A stretch of 64,000 nucleotides of DNA from Verrucomicrobiota bacterium (lineage in GTDB: Bacteria; Verrucomicrobiota; Verrucomicrobiia; Limisphaerales; PALSA-1396). The DNA lies in NCBI GenBank assembly GCA_016200005.1, contig JACQFP010000047.1:124001-188000 (forward strand), read 5' to 3'. This document shows positions 18,788 to 64,000 of this stretch, piece by piece; position 1 is the stretch's first letter; each line of letters opens with the position of its first letter. Below the pieces are notes generated by a model that had not been told where the DNA came from, searched no databases, and was given only the letters and a program-made list of their open reading frames with translations. Position numbers and translations under genes: made by a program.

Positions 18788-19627
18788 CTATGGTCTGCGC
18801 GCCGTGGAGTGTTCGAACAACCACCTGACATCCCTGCTGTTTGGAGCAAAGGCTTGCCAGGTAGAGGGGCCTTCGGTTCCGGTTGGCGGTATTTTTGTTT
18901 CCGCCTCCAGCCACTTGTGTATTTCCGCATGCCCATCCGCGAATCCAAAACCACAGGCACCGTTGTGGTAGCTGGCAGCCAGGTCACCGAAGGCTTGACC
19001 GTCGCTTACAACCGACATCATCCATGTATCATTGATTGAATCAGGGTGTTCATCCACTACCACAAAGAGTGAGCTGGGGTTGGGATTGATGATGTCATTC
19101 ATTTTGTCGTATCTGAAGAACTGGGGAAACCAGACCGAACCCCCGGAAGGACTCTCATAAACTCCTCCTTCAATATATCCATTCATGGCCACACTGCGGA
19201 CCCGCGGATATCTTCTTGAAAAAATCCTGGCGGTCAACGTGTCCGCCGGGCATTTGTAAATCTTGTAGGCGCGCGCGGAATAAGGCCCCAACTTGGATTG
19301 GGTCAAATGCAGGGTGTTGGTATTATCGGTATTGTCGATCGTGAAGGTCATCCAACCGCGGCACCAAGAATTCGGCTCGTCATAGACACCGTTCATCACC
19401 AAACGGTCGTTGAAATCATCGGCATATAGTTTCCACGCGAGAGTCAGTTGCTGGTTGTTGTTCAGGCAATAGATTCCCTGCGCTTTCTGTTTGGCTTTGG
19501 TTAAAGCCGGCAGGAGCAAGCCGGCCAGGATCGCAATGATTGCAATCACCACCAATAGTTCGATCAGAGTAAAGGCAGCACCCAATTCCGGCGGGCGGTG
19601 CCGATAGAATGGAAGCCCTTGCCTCAT
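18788..19627 (-). CDS. Prepilin-like secreted protein (N-terminal methylation motif)
   Basis: The 279-residue protein begins [20 protein letters not shown] followed by [20 protein letters not shown], a class III prepilin signal: cleavage before Phe, Glu at +5, then a hydrophobic helix. The remainder ([20 protein letters not shown] and a C-terminal [11 protein letters not shown]) is the H-X9-DG type domain of planctomycete/verrucomicrobial pseudopilins, which occur in large families of unknown role. Start 19627 places the motif at residue 20. It would be processed by a prepilin peptidase and assembled or anchored at the inner membrane. It lies between two secreted-protein genes on the same strand. 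Confidence 0.88.
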
Positions 19628-19656
19628 TGTATCAGCCCGCCCTTTCCAGCCACGCC

Positions 19657-21861
19657 TTACTGCTGGAACAATTGGAAGAACACGCTGCCATTTGCCGGAT
19701 CGATTGGAAGGGTCACTTGGTTTGCAACCACGCCCGGTACCAATCCCCAGTTGGTGCGCAAACCAATCGTGATAGGGTTGGTCTGGCCGTAGAGCGCGAA
19801 GCTGGTGTAGGCGGTGGGCCACGACAGACTGATGGTCGTCGGAGAGTTGCTTGCTGTAATGGTCGGTGGCGTCGTCGGTTCGCCGCAACCGCAGGAGACG
19901 ACTTCGATGCTACCATCAACAAAGACCTTATTATTCCATGCCAGACCGGAGCCAGGCGGCGGGAGTATGACGGTCGGGGCCGAGTTTACCGGAACTGCGG
20001 CAAAGAGAGTGAATTTATCACCTACCACCAGGTTGTCGTGGCTTCCAGAGAATGTCACTTTCAACGTGCCACCCAAATTAACAACTCCGGTTGCGCTCAC
20101 CACATCATTCGCCAGGGTGGCGCCGTTCTTGCCGATATCCAGGAGGGTAGTGCCGCGCAACGTGAGATCGCCAGCGACATCCAGCGGGCCGAGGGTTCCC
20201 ACGCGAGCCGCAGCGATCGCCTGGCCGGGATAAACTGTAAACAACGTCCCGCCCGCGGGGAAAGTGATGTTTGTCAGCGAGAGAGTTCCATAATTGGTGA
20301 TGATGCCATCACTGATGTTTAGAATATTTATCGACACATTGCCCGGTGTTGCATCTCCCGCCGGCTTCATGTCCAATTTACCGCCGTTGTTGAGATTGAT
20401 GATGGCGGTGCCGCCCCCGGGACCCCCAGAAACGATGTCACCGGCGACCGCCACGGTGCTGCCGTCGTTAACATTGATCGTCCCCTGGCTGCCGGTGGCG
20501 TCGGGAGTGTTCGGTGATGTGCCGGGGCTGATGGGATATTGCACGGCCATAACGATGTTGCTTCGCACGTTGAGCAACGCCGGACCGACACCGGCGTCGT
20601 TATTCACATTAATTGTCCCGCGACCCACGCTGCCGCCAATGTATGGGCCAGGGTATTGGATGCCCATCTGGAGATTGTTCGCATCAACGGTGCCGCCCCC
20701 GAAAGTAAGGGAGCCGACTCCGTCGCCGGCTCGATTATTAGTAGCAACCTGAATCTGGCCGCGTCCGAGAGTGATTAGGTCCACCAGCGCGTCCACGTTT
20801 GCGCCCGACAGGTCGATGGTCCCGGTCGCATTGCCGCTGGAAAAAAATCCGATGGTATTTGTGTTCGGCTCGAACATGTCGCCGATTTCCCACGAGATTT
20901 GCCGGCCGGTTCCGACCGTGTTGCGGAAAGTCAGCGCCGGAGTAGCGAGCCCCGGCGTCATGTCAAGCGTGCCGTTGTTCTTGTGCACACCGATTCTGAG
21001 CTTGTCCGCATTAACGGTGTTGGCCTGTCCGAGGTGAATAAAGGAGGGGCCTCCGGCGTTCTGGTAAACACTAGCCACAGTAATGAGATGGGTTGTTATC
21101 GAATTAGTCTTTGCTAGAAAGAGCGTCCCGGTTGGCCGCCACGCGTGGTCAACGATGGTGAAGTTATGACCTACGAGCACATTGGAAACCACGCAGTTGA
21201 ATGTGTTTAGCGGTGTTAGATCCAGGGTGGCCCGGTGGGCGCCAGAGGTGGTGCTGATTTGGGTGACGCCCAAGTTGGCGTTCTCGTTGCTCACCGTCAG
21301 TGAGTCCCCGATGATCGTCGCATAAACGCTGTCATCTTTGCCGTCCTGCCACTGGTTGCTTCCGACGAAAAAGACTGAGGGCTGTCCGTCATCCGCGATG
21401 CTCGCCACATCGGTTGCCGAAGTGCTGAGTACACTGAGATTGTTTATGATCTGGGAGTTGTGAAAACCATTCGTATTCATGTAACCCAGCGAATTGATAC
21501 TGTTCAAGAAGCCTGCATCCACCACGTTGTTAACCGCGCCGCCGTTCACGTAGAAATCGGCCGCTACGCCGTCATTAGTAAATGCCACATTATCACTCAC
21601 CCCAGGGGCGCCGGCTAGCGACCAGTTTCCACCGGACGACCAAAAGGTGTCACCTGCCAAGCCATTCCACAGTTTTTGTGCAGCCGAGGCCGAGGATGCT
21701 GCGGCAAGCACGCCTGCGAGCAGCGTGCCGCTTATGAGAAGACGGTGCAGGTTCTTCACCTGGCAAACTCCGAAAACTGATTTTCGGATTAGGGGTGATG
21801 ATGGACGTTCGGGTTTTGGTGTCGCTGCCTTCAGGGTCGAGCCTTCGCTTGATGCATTCAT
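19657..21861 (-). CDS. Large secreted passenger-like beta-strand repeat protein
   Basis: The 734-residue protein has a signal peptide ending in [13 protein letters not shown] 21861 leaves a 40-residue leader; GTG 21759 ([20 protein letters not shown]), preceded by GGAG, may be the true start. The body repeats Gly/Asn/Thr-rich strands ([60 protein letters not shown]), as in autotransporter-associated and PEP-CTERM-linked beta-helix proteins. No translocator barrel is present. The C-terminus ([19 protein letters not shown], then FFQLFQQ) belongs to a module shared with three other proteins in the window. Probably a cell-surface or extracellular structural protein. Confidence 0.75.
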
Positions 21862-33541: not shown

Positions 33542-34687
33542 TTACTCCTTCTCTCCCGGCTTCAAAAAGAGAATTTCCCAACGCGATTGCCCGCGCGCGA
33601 AGAGTCGTGCCACGCGCCCAGCCAGTTTGTCGGTCTCGTGTTTCGATCGGTCCAGACCGAGCACCTGCGGATACCAGGCCAGCTTGTCCTCGGCCAGCGG
33701 GATTTTTTGAGGCGGTGACCAGCCCGACGGATTGCGCAAGTCGCGGTTGAATGTGACGTAGATGCCTTCCTGGGTCCAACGGCTGTCTTTGGCGCGGTTC
33801 AACAGAATCACGTATTGGCGTAAATGTGTGTTCCAGTGAATGGACGGTCCCCAAGGCGCATCGGCATCCGCCCGATTCCAATCGGTCGTCACCTGAAAAA
33901 CCGGAGTCACATGCCCGCCAAGCCCTGGCTCGCGCCACTGGCGGTCATGCCACTTCCAAACCTTTCCCACGGGCTGGTCACGGTCAGCCCACCGCATCCG
34001 CGCCACGGCCACTCCCTGCTCGGGGACATTCTTCGGATAATTGCTGAAGAAGAAATAGAGAAACTCCTTCTTCGCATCGAGCATCACGGAAAAATCGCCG
34101 TTCCCGCCGGCGAAGTAATAATTCTTCGTGTCGCACTTGAGCATGTCAGGCGGCGCTTCCAGCACAATGCCGAGGTCGTGCCACGTCGCGCCGTTGTCGC
34201 TGGACTTCACCGCGCCGATTCTGGGTGCCGTCAGGTTCATCTTGGGCGAGTCCGGATGCGCGCCTGGACAGATGCCAGTCGGCTCGAAGTGATACCAGCC
34301 GTAAAGCGTGCCATCCTCGACCTTCCACGTGCACTCAATCCAGCGCCCGCCGCTGGCTTTGTTGTCGTATTCGCAACGCACGTAATTTGTCTGAATATGG
34401 AAGAGGTCGGGACCGGAGCTGCGCCATGGGTGCCCGGCGGAATTGAAGACGTAAAGCGTTTCGCCGTCCCAATGCGCCGGGTTGTTGCAGTCGCACTCGC
34501 CTGGCTTGTCCGGGCTGGCGCTGTTCGCGCCGCGGAACTGGACGGGTGGTGCTTCGCGCAATTTCACCACCAGCGTTCCCGCTTCGCGTTTGGTGGCAGT
34601 CGGTGATTGGCAGCCCAACAAGACAACCAGAGTCGCCGTGGAACTCAGCCGCAACGTTACCCGAAACAGGGGGCGTATCTTTGGCAC
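33542..34687 (-). CDS. Lipoprotein with propeller-like domain (paralogue A)
   Basis: The 381-residue protein starts MPKIRPLFRVTLRLSSTATL with lipobox VLLGC (Cys 25). The body has recurring strands (DGETLYVFNSAGHPWRSSG, SGGRWIECTWKVEDGTLYGW, FAGGNGDFSVMLDAKKEFLY, YVILLNRAKDSRWTQEGIYV), as in five-bladed glycosyl-hydrolase-type propellers; there is no decisive active-site triad. It is clearly homologous to the first 350 residues of the protein at 36408 (GWYHNEPGGLCPG versus GWYHFEPTGICPG; WKWHDRQWREPGLGG versus WKWNNGDWQEPGLGG), which is encoded on the other strand. Probably an outer-membrane-anchored or periplasmic sugar-related protein. Confidence 0.72.
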   Translation of the reverse strand: MPKIRPLFRVTLRLSSTATLVVLLGCQSPTATKREAGTLVVKLREAPPVQFRGANSASPDKPGECDCNNPAHWDGETLYVFNSAGHPWRSSGPDLFHIQTNYVRCEYDNKASGGRWIECTWKVEDGTLYGWYHFEPTGICPGAHPDSPKMNLTAPRIGAVKSSDNGATWHDLGIVLEAPPDMLKCDTKNYYFAGGNGDFSVMLDAKKEFLYFFFSNYPKNVPEQGVAVARMRWADRDQPVGKVWKWHDRQWREPGLGGHVTPVFQVTTDWNRADADAPWGPSIHWNTHLRQYVILLNRAKDSRWTQEGIYVTFNRDLRNPSGWSPPQKIPLAEDKLAWYPQVLGLDRSKHETDKLAGRVARLFARGQSRWEILFLKPGEKE

Positions 34688-35020: not shown

Positions 35021-36298
35021 ATGAAGAACATGACAATTCTTGCGATGGCCGTCAGCCTTGGCCTCGCGTTTACCCCAAAGGCTCAGGCTTGGTTTGCCTA
35101 TCTTGATGGCTCGGCGCTGCCGGAAAGCCCTCCGTGGGTAACAAACTTTTTCAATGAAGGCAGCACGGTGGTTGTGGACATCGGCGGTGGTAACTTCGCG
35201 TTGGAGATGGACTCCCCGTTCCACACGCTTGCCGAAGATCCCCACAAGTCGGGCAATTTCTATAACGAGTATTACATCAACTTCAGCGGCGACTTGGAAA
35301 AGGTCGGCGCCACGCGCTTCCGATTGGCTGGATTCACCCCCACTGGCATGGAAAACATCTTGTCGCCTTCCACACCTCAGATCTCGCCCGGCATCGTTGT
35401 CTCGAACGGCCAATTCTGGGTGTGGAGCATGATCAATGATGCGCCGATCTTTCACCTCGGGCCGGCGGTGACCAATGAATGGCACACGGTTTACATCTGG
35501 ATTCGCCCCGACTACACAGCCCGTGTTATTTGGGACGGCGTGACTGTGTTCGACGGGACGGTCGCCGACGACAATCCGGCCTACGGTGGCTACATGGAAT
35601 TTGGCAGCGGCACCTATTGGGAAACGGACGCCGGCACCACAGTGGATTTCGATTGGGTCGGTTGGGGCGATGCCAGCGATCTGCCGCGCCCAACTCTCTC
35701 CATCGCAAGCGGCGGAAGTGTCGTGCTCTCCTGGTCAACCAACGATCTTGGCTTCGTTCTCCAATGCACTGCCAATCTGACATCAACCAATTGGGTCAAC
35801 GTGACCAATGCTGTCAGCGTGGTCGGCACGCAATACACGGTGACCAACGCAACCACCGACCTGGCCAAATACTATCGCCTCAGCGCGAGACCCCTGGCAT
35901 TCTTGGAAGCCACTGTCACTTTTGATGACGCGCCGACTCCAGCCGAGAATATCCCCAGTCCTTATAATGGATTGGACTGGTCCGCGGCGTGGTTTTATGA
36001 GAGCGATGCGTACGGGGGCTTCGGCCCTCAAGCCTATCTGGATCCGGCCGGCGGTACCACCGCCACCATCTCAGGTGGAGCCGGTGGAGCATTTTTGCTC
36101 AAGAGCCTGCTCGCGTCAGGAAGCGGTACGCTCAGCCTGACCAATAACGGTGCTGGCGAGTCAGCTAGCTTGGTGCTTGGCGCCTCCCCCGCAATGCTGA
36201 CGACCGGCTGGACCAATCTTTCGACCAGCGTGGATGTGACCTCGACCACCGGGTTCGCCGACTTTCCGGCCATCGACGACATCAGGTATCGCCGGTAA
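35021..36298 (+). CDS. Secreted jelly-roll protein with shared C-terminal module (paralogue B)
   Basis: The 425-residue protein begins MKNMTILAMAVSLGLAFTPK, a signal peptide. Residues about 25-220 form a LamG/concanavalin-like domain (AWFAYLDGSALPESPPWVTN; VTNEWHTVYIWIRPDYTARV; YMEFGSGTYWETDAGTTVDF). Residues about 228-295 are the shared module (VLSWSTNDLGFVLQCTANL, then TNWVNVTNAVSVVGTQYTVT and YYRLS). A C-terminal domain of about 130 residues follows (GGTTATISGGAGGAFLLKSL), resembling a further beta-sandwich. The first two parts are homologous to the C-terminal half of the protein at 36408. Probably extracellular, sugar- or surface-binding. Confidence 0.7.
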   Translation: MKNMTILAMAVSLGLAFTPKAQAWFAYLDGSALPESPPWVTNFFNEGSTVVVDIGGGNFALEMDSPFHTLAEDPHKSGNFYNEYYINFSGDLEKVGATRFRLAGFTPTGMENILSPSTPQISPGIVVSNGQFWVWSMINDAPIFHLGPAVTNEWHTVYIWIRPDYTARVIWDGVTVFDGTVADDNPAYGGYMEFGSGTYWETDAGTTVDFDWVGWGDASDLPRPTLSIASGGSVVLSWSTNDLGFVLQCTANLTSTNWVNVTNAVSVVGTQYTVTNATTDLAKYYRLSARPLAFLEATVTFDDAPTPAENIPSPYNGLDWSAAWFYESDAYGGFGPQAYLDPAGGTTATISGGAGGAFLLKSLLASGSGTLSLTNNGAGESASLVLGASPAMLTTGWTNLSTSVDVTSTTGFADFPAIDDIRYRR

Positions 36299-36407
36299 CG
36301 ATGCGCGAGGCAACTTGGTGCACTTCATCTGAACGGCGTGGCAAACCTGGGTGGGTGACCGCCACGGCGGGACTTGCGCTGGAACAGGCGGTGACTTTTT
36401 CTTCAGC

Positions 36408-38273
36408 ATGTTCAAAATGCCCAATTTCAAAGAAACGCTATCAATGCTGACCGCACTCGTTGCTGCGACTGCATCCGCCCTTCCGCCCACGCTGCGACCT
36501 GCCTCTCATTTGCAGTTTCCACATGCCACGGATTCCAACAGTCCCGGGCACTGGGATGGCCCGACGTTTTACCTCTTCAACTCGACCGGCCATCCCTACC
36601 GCAGTGACGGCAGCAACATTTTTTCTTTGGGCAACACCGCCGCGGTGACGTTCGACAATACCGTCAACGGCGGACGCTGGATGGAAGCCACGTGGCGCGA
36701 TACGAACGGCACTCTGTACGGCTGGTATCACAACGAGCCGGGCGGCCTCTGTCCGGGCACGAGCTTGACGGCGCCGAAGATCGGCGCGGCCAAATCCACT
36801 GACAACGGAGCGAACTGGATCGATCTCGGCATTGTTTTGGAAGCCCGTACCAACACGCTGCGCTGCGATGCGCAGAATGGATATTTCGCCGGCGGCAACG
36901 GCGATTTCAGCGTCATGCTCGACGCTGCACAACAGTACCTTTACTTGTTCATCAGCACCTATGCCGGCGACGTAACGGAACAAGGCGTTGCGATTGCCCG
37001 CATGGCTTGGAGTGACCGCGATGTGCCGGTGGGCAAGGTTTGGAAATGGAACAACGGCGATTGGCAGGAACCGGGTCTCGGCGGTCTTGTGACACCGATA
37101 TTCCCCGCGACCGTTGCTTGGGAGCGGGCGGACTGCGAGGCGTTTTGGGGACCATCAGTCCATTGGAACACCTATCTTCAACAATACGTCATGTTGTTGA
37201 ACCGCGCGAAAGGAGCCGGCTGGATACAAGAAGGCATTTATATCAGTTACTCGACCAATCTCGCCGACCCGCTGAACTGGTCCGCGCCGGAAAAAATCCT
37301 GAACGGTGGTGCGTGGTACCCGCAGGTCATCGGGCTGGAGCAGGGTCCGGGAACGGACAAGTCGGCGGGGGCCTTGGCCCGGTATTTCCAGGGCGGCGTC
37401 TCGGATTTTGAAATCTGCTTTGCACCGTCTGGCTGTCCGCCCTCGCCCTGTCTGTGGAATCAGTTCCTCGACGGTTCGAGCCTGCCCGCATCGCCGTGGT
37501 TCTTCTATCAGACAGGAGGCACAGAAGGTAGCACGTCAATCGTTAACTTTTACGATCCGGACATTGGTGGGACGAATCACGCCCTGCGGATCAACTCCGG
37601 CGCGAATTCCACCGAATGGTATCTCGGACCACTTTTCACGGATGAAGTTGTCGCCGCCGCGCGGTTCAGAACCGTTGCGTTCTCCGGTACGAGTGCGGAG
37701 AATTTACTGTGCGCCGAAGTTGGCGGATCGGGTGACCATTGCGCCGCGCCGGCGATTACCATCGTGACCAATCGTTACAAACTGTGGAGCTACACAGAAG
37801 GGACCTTTGGCTCAGGGACAGGCGGCAGCCAGATTCTGGATATTGGCCCAGTGCTGTTGGACCAGTTTCACACGGCATACATTTACGCGCACAAGAGTGG
37901 TCTGATCCGGCTTTGGTGGGACGGCAAACTGATCTTTGACGGGTTGTCGCCGATGGTTCCCAACTATGACGGCTTTATGGAGTGGGGAAGCGGCTCGTGG
38001 CAGTTTACCGCCGCAACCACCGTGGACTTCGACTGGGTCGGCTATGGCAACGCATGCAATCTTCCCCAACTGCTGAGAATCACCCATTCCGATAACTTCA
38101 TCGTTATCTCGTGGCCCACCCAGGCAGTCGGTTTTGTGCCCCAGTCAACTGAAATTCTCGCCCCCGCAAATTGGATGGATATGACCAACACCGTCAGCGT
38201 GGTTGGTTCGGAAAACACCGTCACAAACGACTTGCCAGATACGGCCAGATTTTTCCGTCTGCGTAAACTCTGA
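36408..38273 (+). CDS. Chimeric secreted protein: propeller domain plus jelly roll plus shared module
   Basis: The 621-residue protein starts MFKMPNFKETLSMLTALVAA, a signal peptide. Residues about 30-340 match paralogue A at 33542 (GRWMEATWRDTNGTLYGWYH; FAGGNGDFSVMLDAAQQYLY). From about residue 355 it matches paralogue B at 35021 (FLDGSSLPASPWFFYQ; YDGFMEWGSGSWQFTAATTV; DFDWVGYGNACNLP), ending with the shared module (VISWPTQAVGFVPQSTEIL, NWMDMTNTVSVVGSENTV) and FFRLRKL. It therefore joins the two neighbours' architectures in one polypeptide. The longer frame to 36351 lacks a signal peptide at its start. Probably secreted or surface-bound. Confidence 0.72.
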   Translation: MFKMPNFKETLSMLTALVAATASALPPTLRPASHLQFPHATDSNSPGHWDGPTFYLFNSTGHPYRSDGSNIFSLGNTAAVTFDNTVNGGRWMEATWRDTNGTLYGWYHNEPGGLCPGTSLTAPKIGAAKSTDNGANWIDLGIVLEARTNTLRCDAQNGYFAGGNGDFSVMLDAAQQYLYLFISTYAGDVTEQGVAIARMAWSDRDVPVGKVWKWNNGDWQEPGLGGLVTPIFPATVAWERADCEAFWGPSVHWNTYLQQYVMLLNRAKGAGWIQEGIYISYSTNLADPLNWSAPEKILNGGAWYPQVIGLEQGPGTDKSAGALARYFQGGVSDFEICFAPSGCPPSPCLWNQFLDGSSLPASPWFFYQTGGTEGSTSIVNFYDPDIGGTNHALRINSGANSTEWYLGPLFTDEVVAAARFRTVAFSGTSAENLLCAEVGGSGDHCAAPAITIVTNRYKLWSYTEGTFGSGTGGSQILDIGPVLLDQFHTAYIYAHKSGLIRLWWDGKLIFDGLSPMVPNYDGFMEWGSGSWQFTAATTVDFDWVGYGNACNLPQLLRITHSDNFIVISWPTQAVGFVPQSTEILAPANWMDMTNTVSVVGSENTVTNDLPDTARFFRLRKL

Positions 38274-59954: not shown

Positions 59955-60075
59955 CGTCAATAGCAAGGACCGAAAAACAAGTTGAGGGTACACCCGTGGC
60001 CCACCGGACCGGGGTGTCCGAAGGTCATTTGCGCGGGCGAGAATCCGATTGACTCGGTGGGTTGCCCGCTCAAGC

Positions 60076-61395
60076 ATGGTTTTATTGCGTGAGTCCCCAA
60101 AAATTCGCAGCCGCTACCCCACTTCGGCGCGAGCGGGAGCGCGAGTACAGGTTTCGGCCTTGTCACCGTCGCGCCGACACCGCTATGGCTGTGTTTTGGC
60201 GCTAACCGGGATTTTACTGTCGGGACTGGTTCACGCCCAGGACACAAATGAATTCCGCCCCTACCTTCAATGGCGGGTGGGCGAATTTGCGCCCAAATGG
60301 GGGGTGCTGGACTTGCGCGGAATCAGCTTGGGCGCGGACTTCAACCAGCACTGGAGTGCGGAGCTGGCGCTCGACGCCTGGCAACTGAATTTCGAACCGC
60401 TCCACTCCGGAGTGGTGTTCGGCGAAGAACAGGTCTTTACGCTCGCTCCGCAAGCGCGATTCCGAATTCCCGTCGGGTCGGATCGCCTGTTGCTCTACTC
60501 CATCGTGGGCGTCGGCGGATCGTGGATTCAATTCAACGACCGCAAGGCGGAAGGCATTGGGCACCGGATTGACGCCGACGGCATGACCTTCTCCGCAACC
60601 GCGGGTCTGGGTTTCGACTATCTGCTGGCGCCCAACATCGCTTTCAACCTCGAAGGCAAATATGTCTGGTGCGATCCCATCGGAATCCGGATTGACGGCC
60701 GAAGACAGGACTGGGATGCGTCGTCATTTCTCGCCACGCTGGGTTTGCGGATTTATTTCGACAAACAGCCGCCGGAAATGCTGTTGAGCAAGGCGGGCGT
60801 CTTCAAACCCGTGCGCTTCTATTTCGGCACGCAAGGCGGATTCACGGTTTTGACCGATGGCGAATGGGTTTCAGGCGCCGAACTGGTGCCGAAACTCAAT
60901 GCGCTCGGCGGCACGCTCAATTTGAATTACACCATCGCGCTGGGAGCGGATTTTGGCGAACACCTCGGCGGCGAACTCGCGCTGGCACACACGGAATATT
61001 CGCTGTTTCTGCCGGGAAATGGCCCGGTCGGCGAATACTCGATGTACTCAGCGATCCCGATGTTGCGGCTGCGATTTCCCTCTGCCAGCGGTCGCTGGGT
61101 GCCCTACGCGATCGCCGGGGCGGGGGTCGTCTATGGCGAGTTCCACGATGTGAAACCGGCCGGCGTTGGTCTTGGGATTCGCGCCAAAGGCACTTCGCCC
61201 GCGTTCGTCGCCGGTGCAGGGGTGGATTACTTCATCGCTCGTAATCTTTCTCTGACCTTTGAAAGCCGCTGGCGATATGCCTTGGACCAGAAGCTGGCTG
61301 TCCCGGGCGGTCCGACAGGTAAAGGAGACACCTCAGAAATTCAATTCACAGTTGGATTCCGCGCGTACCTGTTTGAATTCGGAAAGCGGAGGTGA
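60076..61395 (+). CDS. Outer-membrane beta-barrel protein with two homologous halves
   Basis: The protein (439 residues from ATG 60076) contains a signal-peptide-like stretch RHRYGCVLALTGILLSGLVH, ending in AQ; because it is far from that ATG, TTG 60160 (LSPSRRHRYGCVLALTG) may be the true start. After it come alternating amphipathic strands in two halves: FRPYLQWRVGEFAPKWG to LGLRIYFDKQ and RFYFGTQGGFTVLTDGEWVS to VGFRAYLFEFGKRR, each about 180 residues with the same order (SAELALDAWQ / GGELALAHTE; YSIVGVGGSW / YAIAGAGVVY; LGFDYLLAPN / AGVDYFIARN). This suits two eight-stranded barrels of the OmpA/OmpW type. A TTG start at 60049 is the longest frame. Confidence 0.75.
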   Translation: MVLLRESPKIRSRYPTSARAGARVQVSALSPSRRHRYGCVLALTGILLSGLVHAQDTNEFRPYLQWRVGEFAPKWGVLDLRGISLGADFNQHWSAELALDAWQLNFEPLHSGVVFGEEQVFTLAPQARFRIPVGSDRLLLYSIVGVGGSWIQFNDRKAEGIGHRIDADGMTFSATAGLGFDYLLAPNIAFNLEGKYVWCDPIGIRIDGRRQDWDASSFLATLGLRIYFDKQPPEMLLSKAGVFKPVRFYFGTQGGFTVLTDGEWVSGAELVPKLNALGGTLNLNYTIALGADFGEHLGGELALAHTEYSLFLPGNGPVGEYSMYSAIPMLRLRFPSASGRWVPYAIAGAGVVYGEFHDVKPAGVGLGIRAKGTSPAFVAGAGVDYFIARNLSLTFESRWRYALDQKLAVPGGPTGKGDTSEIQFTVGFRAYLFEFGKRR

Positions 61396-62193: not shown

Positions 62194-63152
62194 AACAACT
62201 TGTTGTCACGATCTTCGCGGCGCTCATTCTTCACGGCAGTCTCTCCTTGGCAGACGGTCTGAAGCTCGAGACGGTTGCGCTGCCTGCATTGCGAATCAAC
62301 GGACAGGCGGCCAGGGCGCACACGCAGGGACTGGAAATCGCGGCCGGCAAATATTATGTCACCGCGCGTCGGGAGGACGTCCGGCCGAGGCGCGCATTGC
62401 TGCTGCGAACCGAGCCAGCCGGAACGAACTGGGATGTCTGGGACATCACATCTGTTGACGCCGCTGGAAAGGTGATGGCGCTGGATCATCCCGGCGGAAT
62501 GCAGTCGGACGGGAAGCGTTTGTGGATTCCAGTTGCCGAGAGCAAACGTCATGGGCGCAGCCGCATTTGCGTTTTTGCTCTGGAGGGCATGGTGGCCGGC
62601 AAGCCGCTGAAACCGGTATTTGAGTTCTCCGTCAACGATCACATCGGCGCGCTGGCGGTCGAGAGCGGGCACGGGTTGGTGTTCGGCGCAAATTGGGATA
62701 CGGAAACGGTTTATGTTTGGGACCTCGAAGGTCGCCTGAAACGGACGTTGACCGGTGCCGAACTCAAGGCGCGCGACTTGGGCGTGGTCACCAGCGGTGA
62801 GGTCCGTGCGGGTGTCGCGGTTCAGGATTGGAAGGTTGTTGGCGATCGCCTCTTTGCCTCCGGCCTCTTTCGCGCGCCTGAATCGGTCAAAGTGTCGCCG
62901 AAAAGCCGCTGGATTTCCTTCGCCAATTTTTTGGAAACGGATTTCCAGCGCAGGATTTGCTTTCCACCTTTGCAGGACGGAGTCGAGCTCGCGCGTGAAG
63001 CCATGGCCGTTTTTGACGGTCTGGTTTATTTCCTGCCTGAAGATTTGGGTGCCCGCAACCGGCTCTTCCGCGTCGCTCTGGCGGACCTCCTGAAACGTGG
63101 CGTGGCTAAGGAGGCCCGCGCTTCGCAGAATCAGGGACGCATCAGCCGGTAA
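62190..63152 (+). CDS. Secreted propeller-like protein (DUF6454-like)
   Basis: The 320-residue protein starts MKQLVVTIFAALILHGSLSL, a signal peptide. The body has repeated four-stranded blocks (TQGLEIAAGKYYVTARREDV, WDVWDITSVDAAGKVMALDH, PGGMQSDGKRLWIPVAESKR, VFEFSVNDHIGALAVESGHG, GLVFGANWDTETVYVWDLEG), which fit a six-bladed propeller. Function unknown. ATG 62190 is supported by the ATGA overlap with the lipoprotein gene; the earlier frame from 62064 lies within it. Its 3' end overlaps the convergent neighbour by 22 bases. Confidence 0.7.
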   Translation: MKQLVVTIFAALILHGSLSLADGLKLETVALPALRINGQAARAHTQGLEIAAGKYYVTARREDVRPRRALLLRTEPAGTNWDVWDITSVDAAGKVMALDHPGGMQSDGKRLWIPVAESKRHGRSRICVFALEGMVAGKPLKPVFEFSVNDHIGALAVESGHGLVFGANWDTETVYVWDLEGRLKRTLTGAELKARDLGVVTSGEVRAGVAVQDWKVVGDRLFASGLFRAPESVKVSPKSRWISFANFLETDFQRRICFPPLQDGVELAREAMAVFDGLVYFLPEDLGARNRLFRVALADLLKRGVAKEARASQNQGRISR

Positions 63153-64000
63153 AAGCTATTCCCCGCCAACGGCGGAAGTATGACCTGATTGTTGGTGCCC
63201 ACGACAGTAACGGCGTTGGTCACGTCGTTCCAGTTGGTGGTGCCGAGCCTGAAGTTTTGTTGGAGCACGAAGCCACTGGAGTTGGTCGGCCAGGTGAGGG
63301 CCATCGCGTTGCTCTGCGGCATTGAAACCGACAGCCACGGCACGGCGACAAAATTGGCAACCAGCGAGCGGTTCAAGATATTGGTGAACTGGTAGCTGGA
63401 CGCACTGCTCACGACGGTGTCGTTCTCCGTCCAGTTGACAAACTTGAACCCGGCGTTCGGCGCGGCGGTGACGGTCGCCGTTGTGCCGTTGGTATAAACG
63501 CCATCGCCGGTACAGATGCCGCCGTTGGTGGGTGAAGCGGTCGTGTCCACGGAACTGTGTGGCGGCAGGACTTCGTTCGCGGCCGCGACGATGATTGGAT
63601 ATTTTTTCGTGAGGACCGGATTGTTGCTGGCGGTGGCAGTGACCGTGAGCATGAATACGCCGGCTTCGTTCGGTGTGCCATAAACCCAGCCCGTGGCAGG
63701 ATCGAAGGCCATTCCGGCGGGCAGATCGCCGGAACTGGTTGCGGTGAAATTTGTGTCACTGGCAATGACCAGGCTGCGGGTAGGATACTCAACCCCAACC
63801 TCACCGTCGGGGAGATGATCGATCAATCCGATGGGTGGCGCCGCTACCATGGCCGACATTTGTGCGCCCAGGAATTTGCCGACGACTTCGACCGTTGAGA
63901 GGTCAATCGGATCCCCATTGCCGTTCGTATAAACTCCAACCCCATGAATGCCATCCGGCGCGACTCGTTCCGCCATCGCTTGATGCGTGTCCCAGTCCGC
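63131..64000 (-). CDS. Secreted Ig-like/repeat protein with shared C-terminal module (5' end missing)
   Basis: The frame is open past base 64000, so only the last 289 residues are visible. They contain a putative-Ig (He_PIG-like) domain (VGVEYPTRSLVIASDTNFTA, DLPAGMAFDPATGWVYGTPN), an InlB-B-repeat-like domain (TVTAAPNAGFKFVNWTENDT) and the shared module at the end (ALTWPTNSSGFVLQQNFRL, TTNWNDVTNAVTVVGTNNQV, then FYRLMRP). It is the closest relative of the module copy at 35021. Probably an extracellular protein of the same class as those in 33-38 kb. Confidence 0.75.
   Translation of the reverse strand, partial: ADWDTHQAMAERVAPDGIHGVGVYTNGNGDPIDLSTVEVVGKFLGAQMSAMVAAPPIGLIDHLPDGEVGVEYPTRSLVIASDTNFTATSSGDLPAGMAFDPATGWVYGTPNEAGVFMLTVTATASNNPVLTKKYPIIVAAANEVLPPHSSVDTTASPTNGGICTGDGVYTNGTTATVTAAPNAGFKFVNWTENDTVVSSASSYQFTNILNRSLVANFVAVPWLSVSMPQSNAMALTWPTNSSGFVLQQNFRLGTTNWNDVTNAVTVVGTNNQVILPPLAGNSFYRLMRP

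Follow-up and report, generated by a model that had tools for sequence, protein, structure and literature searches.

Placing or holding exported proteins at the bacterial cell surface is a job done in different settings by Por tails, PEP-CTERM domains and lipid anchors. The T9SS type A sorting domain (Por_Secre_tail, TIGR04183) is a C-terminal beta-sandwich carried by many exported proteins, and propellers are a partner kind common in T9SS cargo. Other small domains are known for their folds or ligands, e.g., the fibronectin type III (FN3) fold, with ~90 residues in seven strands (A, B, C, C', E, F and G), the discoidin domains, which are discoidin-like jelly rolls, and the carbohydrate-binding modules (CBMs), which occur at either end of secreted enzymes. 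PEP-CTERM, a multi-copy C-terminal homology domain of proteins with signal peptides, was first seen in Verrucomicrobium spinosum (PMC1569441).

Here we describe a homologous domain of ~70 residues that Verrucomicrobiota attach to many exported proteins, four of which lie in the window, i.e., the whole stretch of 64,000 nucleotides that was analysed. The genomes of one order carry this domain, hereafter the module, in tens of copies each; it is scattered through the phylum and is not covered by Pfam or NCBIfam, no model of which matched it above its own cut-off. In the literature searched, neither titles nor abstracts named a domain of this kind, and the papers searched held no experimental localisation of any module protein. 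The module marks a large extracellular proteome that would otherwise be annotated as hypothetical, and should it serve for targeting or attachment, it would give a handle on how Verrucomicrobiota place their surface proteins, with one profile sufficing to list the cargo in each genome.

Like PEP-CTERM (TIGR02595), the module is multi-copy, C-terminal and found on proteins with signal peptides, but the residue frequencies of 136 modules give no sign of a PEP motif, a hydrophobic helix or a basic anchor. Exosortase (TIGR02602) and PEP-CTERM tails are both present in this genome, the former in 18 of 20 genomes searched, and 8 PEP-CTERM matches at E ≤ 1 compare with 76 modules at E ≤ 0.001 (95 at E ≤ 0.1). 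Module counts per Mb did not follow exosortase or PEP-CTERM counts when genome size was allowed for, and PEP-CTERM identity was rejected on the missing motif and helix together with this independence. The module is likewise similar to Por_Secre_tail in length, in its predicted C-terminal beta-sandwich, in its many exported hosts and in having propellers among its partners, but its motif is different. TIGR04183 had no match in this genome and was above cut-off in 1 of 20 genomes (some control genomes did match), while SprA was found in 0 of 20 genomes, although no control genome matched either; the T9SS cargo reading was rejected for want of any Por_Secre_tail match in this genome. The initial annotation was right that the module is unlike both kinds of tail in sequence.

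One homologous domain in four window proteins

The module has the consensus P-x-L-x-I ... VxLSWP...tGFxLQ...L...W..V...g....V......FFRL[RK]xP. To avoid circularity, a profile was built from 81 modules of other genomes and zero sequences from this one, and it recovered all four window copies (E 1.3e-20 to 3e-5) as well as 73 modules in the loci fetched from this genome. These matches are well beyond chance, including that of the diverged passenger-like protein. Searching this genome with the module of the 63131 protein alone (proteins are named by their first coordinate) yielded 52 matches at E ≤ 10, which included the 35021 copy (7.7e-10) and the 36408 copy (1.7e-8), and the A1 profile had no match in window frames outside the four proteins (Table 1).

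Table 1. Proteins and module copies in the window, with one protein from another locus of the same genome (last line).
Feature	Position	Strand	Remarks
35021 protein	35021..36298	+	Signal peptide, ConA-like domain, module, further C-terminal region
Module of 35021 protein, internal	35678..35884	+	VVLSWSTNDLGFVLQ...KYYRLS; independent profile iE 2.2e-19
36408 protein	36408..38273	+	Signal peptide, DUF4185-like domain, ConA-like domain, module
Module of 36408 protein, C-terminal	38058..38270	+	LRITHSDNFIVISWPTQAVGFVPQ...ARFFRLRKL-stop; independent profile iE 3.7e-18
19657 protein	19657..21861	-	Passenger-like, with module; likely start is a GTG near 21759
Diverged module of 19657 protein, C-terminal	19660..19875	-	...VFFQLFQQ-stop; independent profile iE 3e-5
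63131 protein	63131..64000, continues past window	-	He_PIG Ig domain, Flg_new_2 repeat, module
Module of 63131 protein, C-terminal	63134..63346	-	LSVSMPQSNAMALTWPTNSSGFVLQ...SFYRLMRP-stop; independent profile iE 1.3e-20
Lipoprotein-like paralogue of the first domain of the 36408 protein, without module	33542..34687	-	VVLLGC lipobox
L006 protein	L006:5442-7223		N-terminal module, unmatched middle, the window's ConA-like domain at C-terminus

The initial annotation had claimed a shared segment in four otherwise different proteins, C-terminal in three of them, followed by another domain in the 35021 protein and diverged in the passenger-like one. The independent profile bears out the segment, its placement (~137 residues lie behind the 35021 copy) and its divergence. 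That the proteins are otherwise different holds for hosts in general, which are varied, but not for the 35021 and 36408 proteins, which are 37% identical over 292 residues comprising both the ConA-like domain and the module. These two are thus neighbouring paralogues in this part, and because they share both domains they are not independent of each other. The label 'ConA-like' is itself our reading of the sequence, as Pfam had no match on this stretch of the window proteins, and the DUF4185-like domain of the 36408 protein matched at E 2.7e-4, below the Pfam cut-off. The first domain of the 36408 protein has an adjoining relative (53% identity over 360 aa) that lacks both the ConA-like domain and the module, so that one of this pair carries a lipobox and the other a module.

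For the passenger-like protein the drawn ATG is probably upstream of the real start, since the GTG opens a clear signal peptide. The 63131 protein extends beyond the window in a stop-to-stop frame of 626 aa, and shortly past the window edge, near G000:C47:189004-190086, a second frame (361 aa) also carries a module.

Conserved residues and predicted fold

Across 136 aligned modules W19 is invariant, W39, R67 and L68 are kept in 97-98%, P4, L6, L28 and [QE]29 in more than 90%, and [FY][FY] stands directly before RL. In C-terminal copies the tail after RL is mostly 2-3 residues long and mostly basic, and its last residue is proline in 82 of 137 copies (60%), as against 42 of 298 control frames (14%).

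AlphaFold2, run on the 63131 module with 44 sequences (pLDDT 90, pTM 0.76), placed six strands of at least three residues at 8-13, 16-22, 29-33, 48-51, 54-59 and 67-71. The module is thereby predicted to be a small six-strand beta-sandwich resembling FN3, and on the FN3 plan its strands would correspond to A, B, C, C', E and F, with the chain stopping where strand G would come. A second model, of the internal 35021 copy, bears on the question of strand G: the module part has a pLDDT of ~95, a short strand follows at residues 92-96, where confidence falls, and the region behind it is mostly below 60. Judging by strand alternation, a conserved patch made up of F65, R67 and Q/E29 may be exposed.

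FN3 domains were prominent among the Foldseek matches in the PDB (cytokine receptors, tenascin-derived Tencon, ROS1 and sDscam), with probabilities of up to 1.00 and TM scores of 0.5-0.62 but nothing at E ≤ 0.001; weaker matches included CBM56 and CBM21 structures, and a viral fold library gave nothing below E 0.001. Like FN3 (PF00041), the predicted sandwich has its Trp on strand B and the motif aromatic-x-R-L on strand F, but the module is shorter, at ~70 residues, and is predicted without strand G. In profile searches the Pfam fn3 model touched 1 of 49 module members (E 0.084, short of its cut-off), and hhalign of the module against five FN3-type domains of this genome gave a probability of 4.5%, which is not significant, in an alignment that preserves this register and likewise stops short of strand G. 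Membership of the known FN3 family was rejected on these searches. The convincing fn3 domains of this genome are also mostly far from a stop codon, unlike the module. Five other loci of this genome (L163, L165, L167, L170 and L172) show Pfam fn3 hits in frames with translations unlike those of real proteins; these may be artefacts of antisense reading and would then make fn3 counts too high.

The only PDB matches by sequence were discoidin-type domains of chitosanases and glucanases (best E 0.002). The module shares with the discoidin, or F5/8 type C, domains of the Paenibacillus enzymes (4zy9, 2rv9 and 4zxe) the pattern W...Y-x-I-Q...W-x-x-V over 60 residues, but differs from discoidin and CBM32-like domains in its FN3-like predicted fold, and no discoidin is named among the 50 Foldseek matches listed. 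Homology was rejected as weak and not borne out by the predicted fold, and the common pattern is likely convergent. With DUF4232 (PF14016), 5 of the 49 members gave matches at E up to 1, the best at 3.2e-5, all short of its cut-off; two members that were re-scanned scored 20.2 and 13.6 bits on part of the profile, against a cut-off of 27.

Placement, export and spread

Of the 66 strong copies in this genome, 58 have no more than 6 residues between their end and the stop codon, where uniform placement would give 1.4, and the same is true of 42 of 46 copies taken from 40 loci in 40 other genomes, the loci having been chosen for holding good matches. Exceptions among the latter include L131, in which two copies precede a third, C-terminal one, and L155, where 10 residues separate the copy from the stop codon. 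In this genome the eight exceptions comprise three internal copies (the 35021 protein, L012 and L041, the last being the first of a C-terminal tandem pair) and five N-proximal ones (L003, L006, L014, L015 and L043), which start within ~11 residues of the heuristic end of the signal peptide or, in L015, are overlapped by it. A weaker copy, L020 (iE 1.5e-3), is also near the N-terminus. In a tree of poor resolution, seven independent changes are required to account for the copies that are not C-terminal, and long branches lead to most of the N-proximal copies, which would fit a loss of the tag role there; Haft and co-workers made the same long-branch remark about misplaced PEP-CTERM tails (PMC1569441). 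The module and the ConA-like domain stand in reversed order in the L006 protein, which indicates that the domain moves as a unit.

Module proteins are enriched in signal peptides, with 58 of 78 module frames positive as against 100 of 272 control frames (p = 6e-9) by a crude rule that misses some signal peptides visible by eye and places cleavage points approximately. The host proteins vary widely and beta-propellers are prominent among them: Pfam partners are RCC1, NHL, SBBP, Sortilin/BNR and DUF5122 propellers as well as HYR, Ig and Big_7 domains, and N-terminal modules have partners that include 3-keto-disaccharide hydrolase and FGE-sulfatase. A lipobox was found in the signal peptide of 1 of 57 module proteins and of 8 of 100 controls; its depletion as a general rule is suggestive but not significant (p = 0.16).

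Within the order, 38 of 39 relatives carry the module, with up to 51 copies in one genome, and it was found in 60 of 289 genomes sampled across the phylum, at most 20 candidates being scored in each. Larger genomes tend to have more copies (rho 0.65). A scan of a genome-contig collection with the A2 subfamily only gave 42 loci, all Verrucomicrobia by title, and tblastn of a typed consensus against a plasmid collection gave no match, which says little about other phyla. At L023 (G000:C22:311000-330900) a recent local expansion is seen as a cluster of at least four genes, whose modules share 83-88% identity with the first.

These results uphold the view of the initial annotation that the module is a mobile, lineage-wide domain of exported proteins, and a mostly C-terminal position and co-occurrence with signal peptides, which it had proposed as checks, were both observed. 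It had also named an opposing outcome, a known Ig/FN3-type family with no bias to C-termini. Neither part of this was obtained, as no model was above cut-off and the bias is extreme, but the FN3-like predicted fold does place the module within the broad Ig/FN3 class of folds. A signal that has to be read at the C-terminus is not established, given the minority of copies directly behind a signal peptide, and a sorting or anchoring role is what we infer.

Candidate roles of the module

The explanation we favour, at somewhat under an even chance, is that the folded module acts as a tag at the protein terminus, by which exported proteins are sorted or attached and so placed or held at the cell surface. 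The host protein would be exported by Sec, the module would then fold, and the folded module would be recognised by a surface receptor, an envelope polysaccharide or export machinery, by which extracellular proteins, often beta-propellers, would be placed or held at the surface. A folded tag is supported by the C-terminal placement, the precise end, the signal peptides, the varied partners and the spread through the phylum, and a tag role also by the lipoprotein-like nature of the module-free paralogue of the 36408 first domain. Copies directly behind a signal peptide argue against a signal that is read only at the C-terminus, unless the role has been lost there. No receptor or protease for the module was found.

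Copies behind the signal peptide also leave room for rival readings, the first being an accessory module that binds polysaccharide or another polymer in the manner of a CBM and has no part in sorting, which we consider rather unlikely. As in CBMs, the module can come first or last in the mature protein and can be repeated in tandem (L131 and L041), its partners include the hydrolase, FGE-sulfatase and ConA-like domains, CBM56 and CBM21 are among its weaker structural matches, its PDB sequence matches are discoidin-type, and the putative exposed patch may be a conserved surface. A strictly fixed C-terminal end with a proline tail would, however, be unexpected for a CBM, many partners are propellers without known catalytic role, and no structural match is strong. 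An element of folding or stability that closes the C-terminal side of its host and shields the terminus from proteases, with no targeting role, would account for the compact, confidently predicted fold, the proline-terminated, mostly basic tails and the frequency of beta-propellers. Such a cap is unlikely, as a domain-specific one would be expected on one partner family while the module rides on many, it also occurs directly behind signal peptides, and a paralogue such as the window lipoprotein manages without it.

It is improbable that the module is a passive relic, i.e., one FN3-like domain spread as a C-terminal fusion by gene duplication, its position reflecting history and no common function. 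The modules of three Sortilin/BNR-type proteins (L031, L036 and L039) and two others do form one supported group, the L023 cluster consists of recent paralogues and copy number follows genome size, but those of SBBP-type proteins are spread over the (poorly resolved) tree, and the near-invariant residues and fixed tail, kept across the phylum at roughly 25-50% identity, imply purifying selection.

In a more specific form of the favoured surface tag, which we regard as quite doubtful, the module would mark the substrates of an undescribed pathway by which Verrucomicrobiota secrete proteins or target them to the surface, and would so be a counterpart of the T9SS C-terminal domain. A dedicated receptor would dock the folded FN3-like domain by its empty strand G site and fixed [FY][FY]RLxxP end, perhaps by donor-strand completion.

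Two further frames of the window may be mentioned. That at 60049-61395 (+) apparently consists of two similar outer-membrane-barrel-like halves, judged by eye only. That at 18788-19888 (-), which adjoins the passenger-like module gene, has a prepilin-type N-terminus inside the frame, and its TTG start is probably too early.
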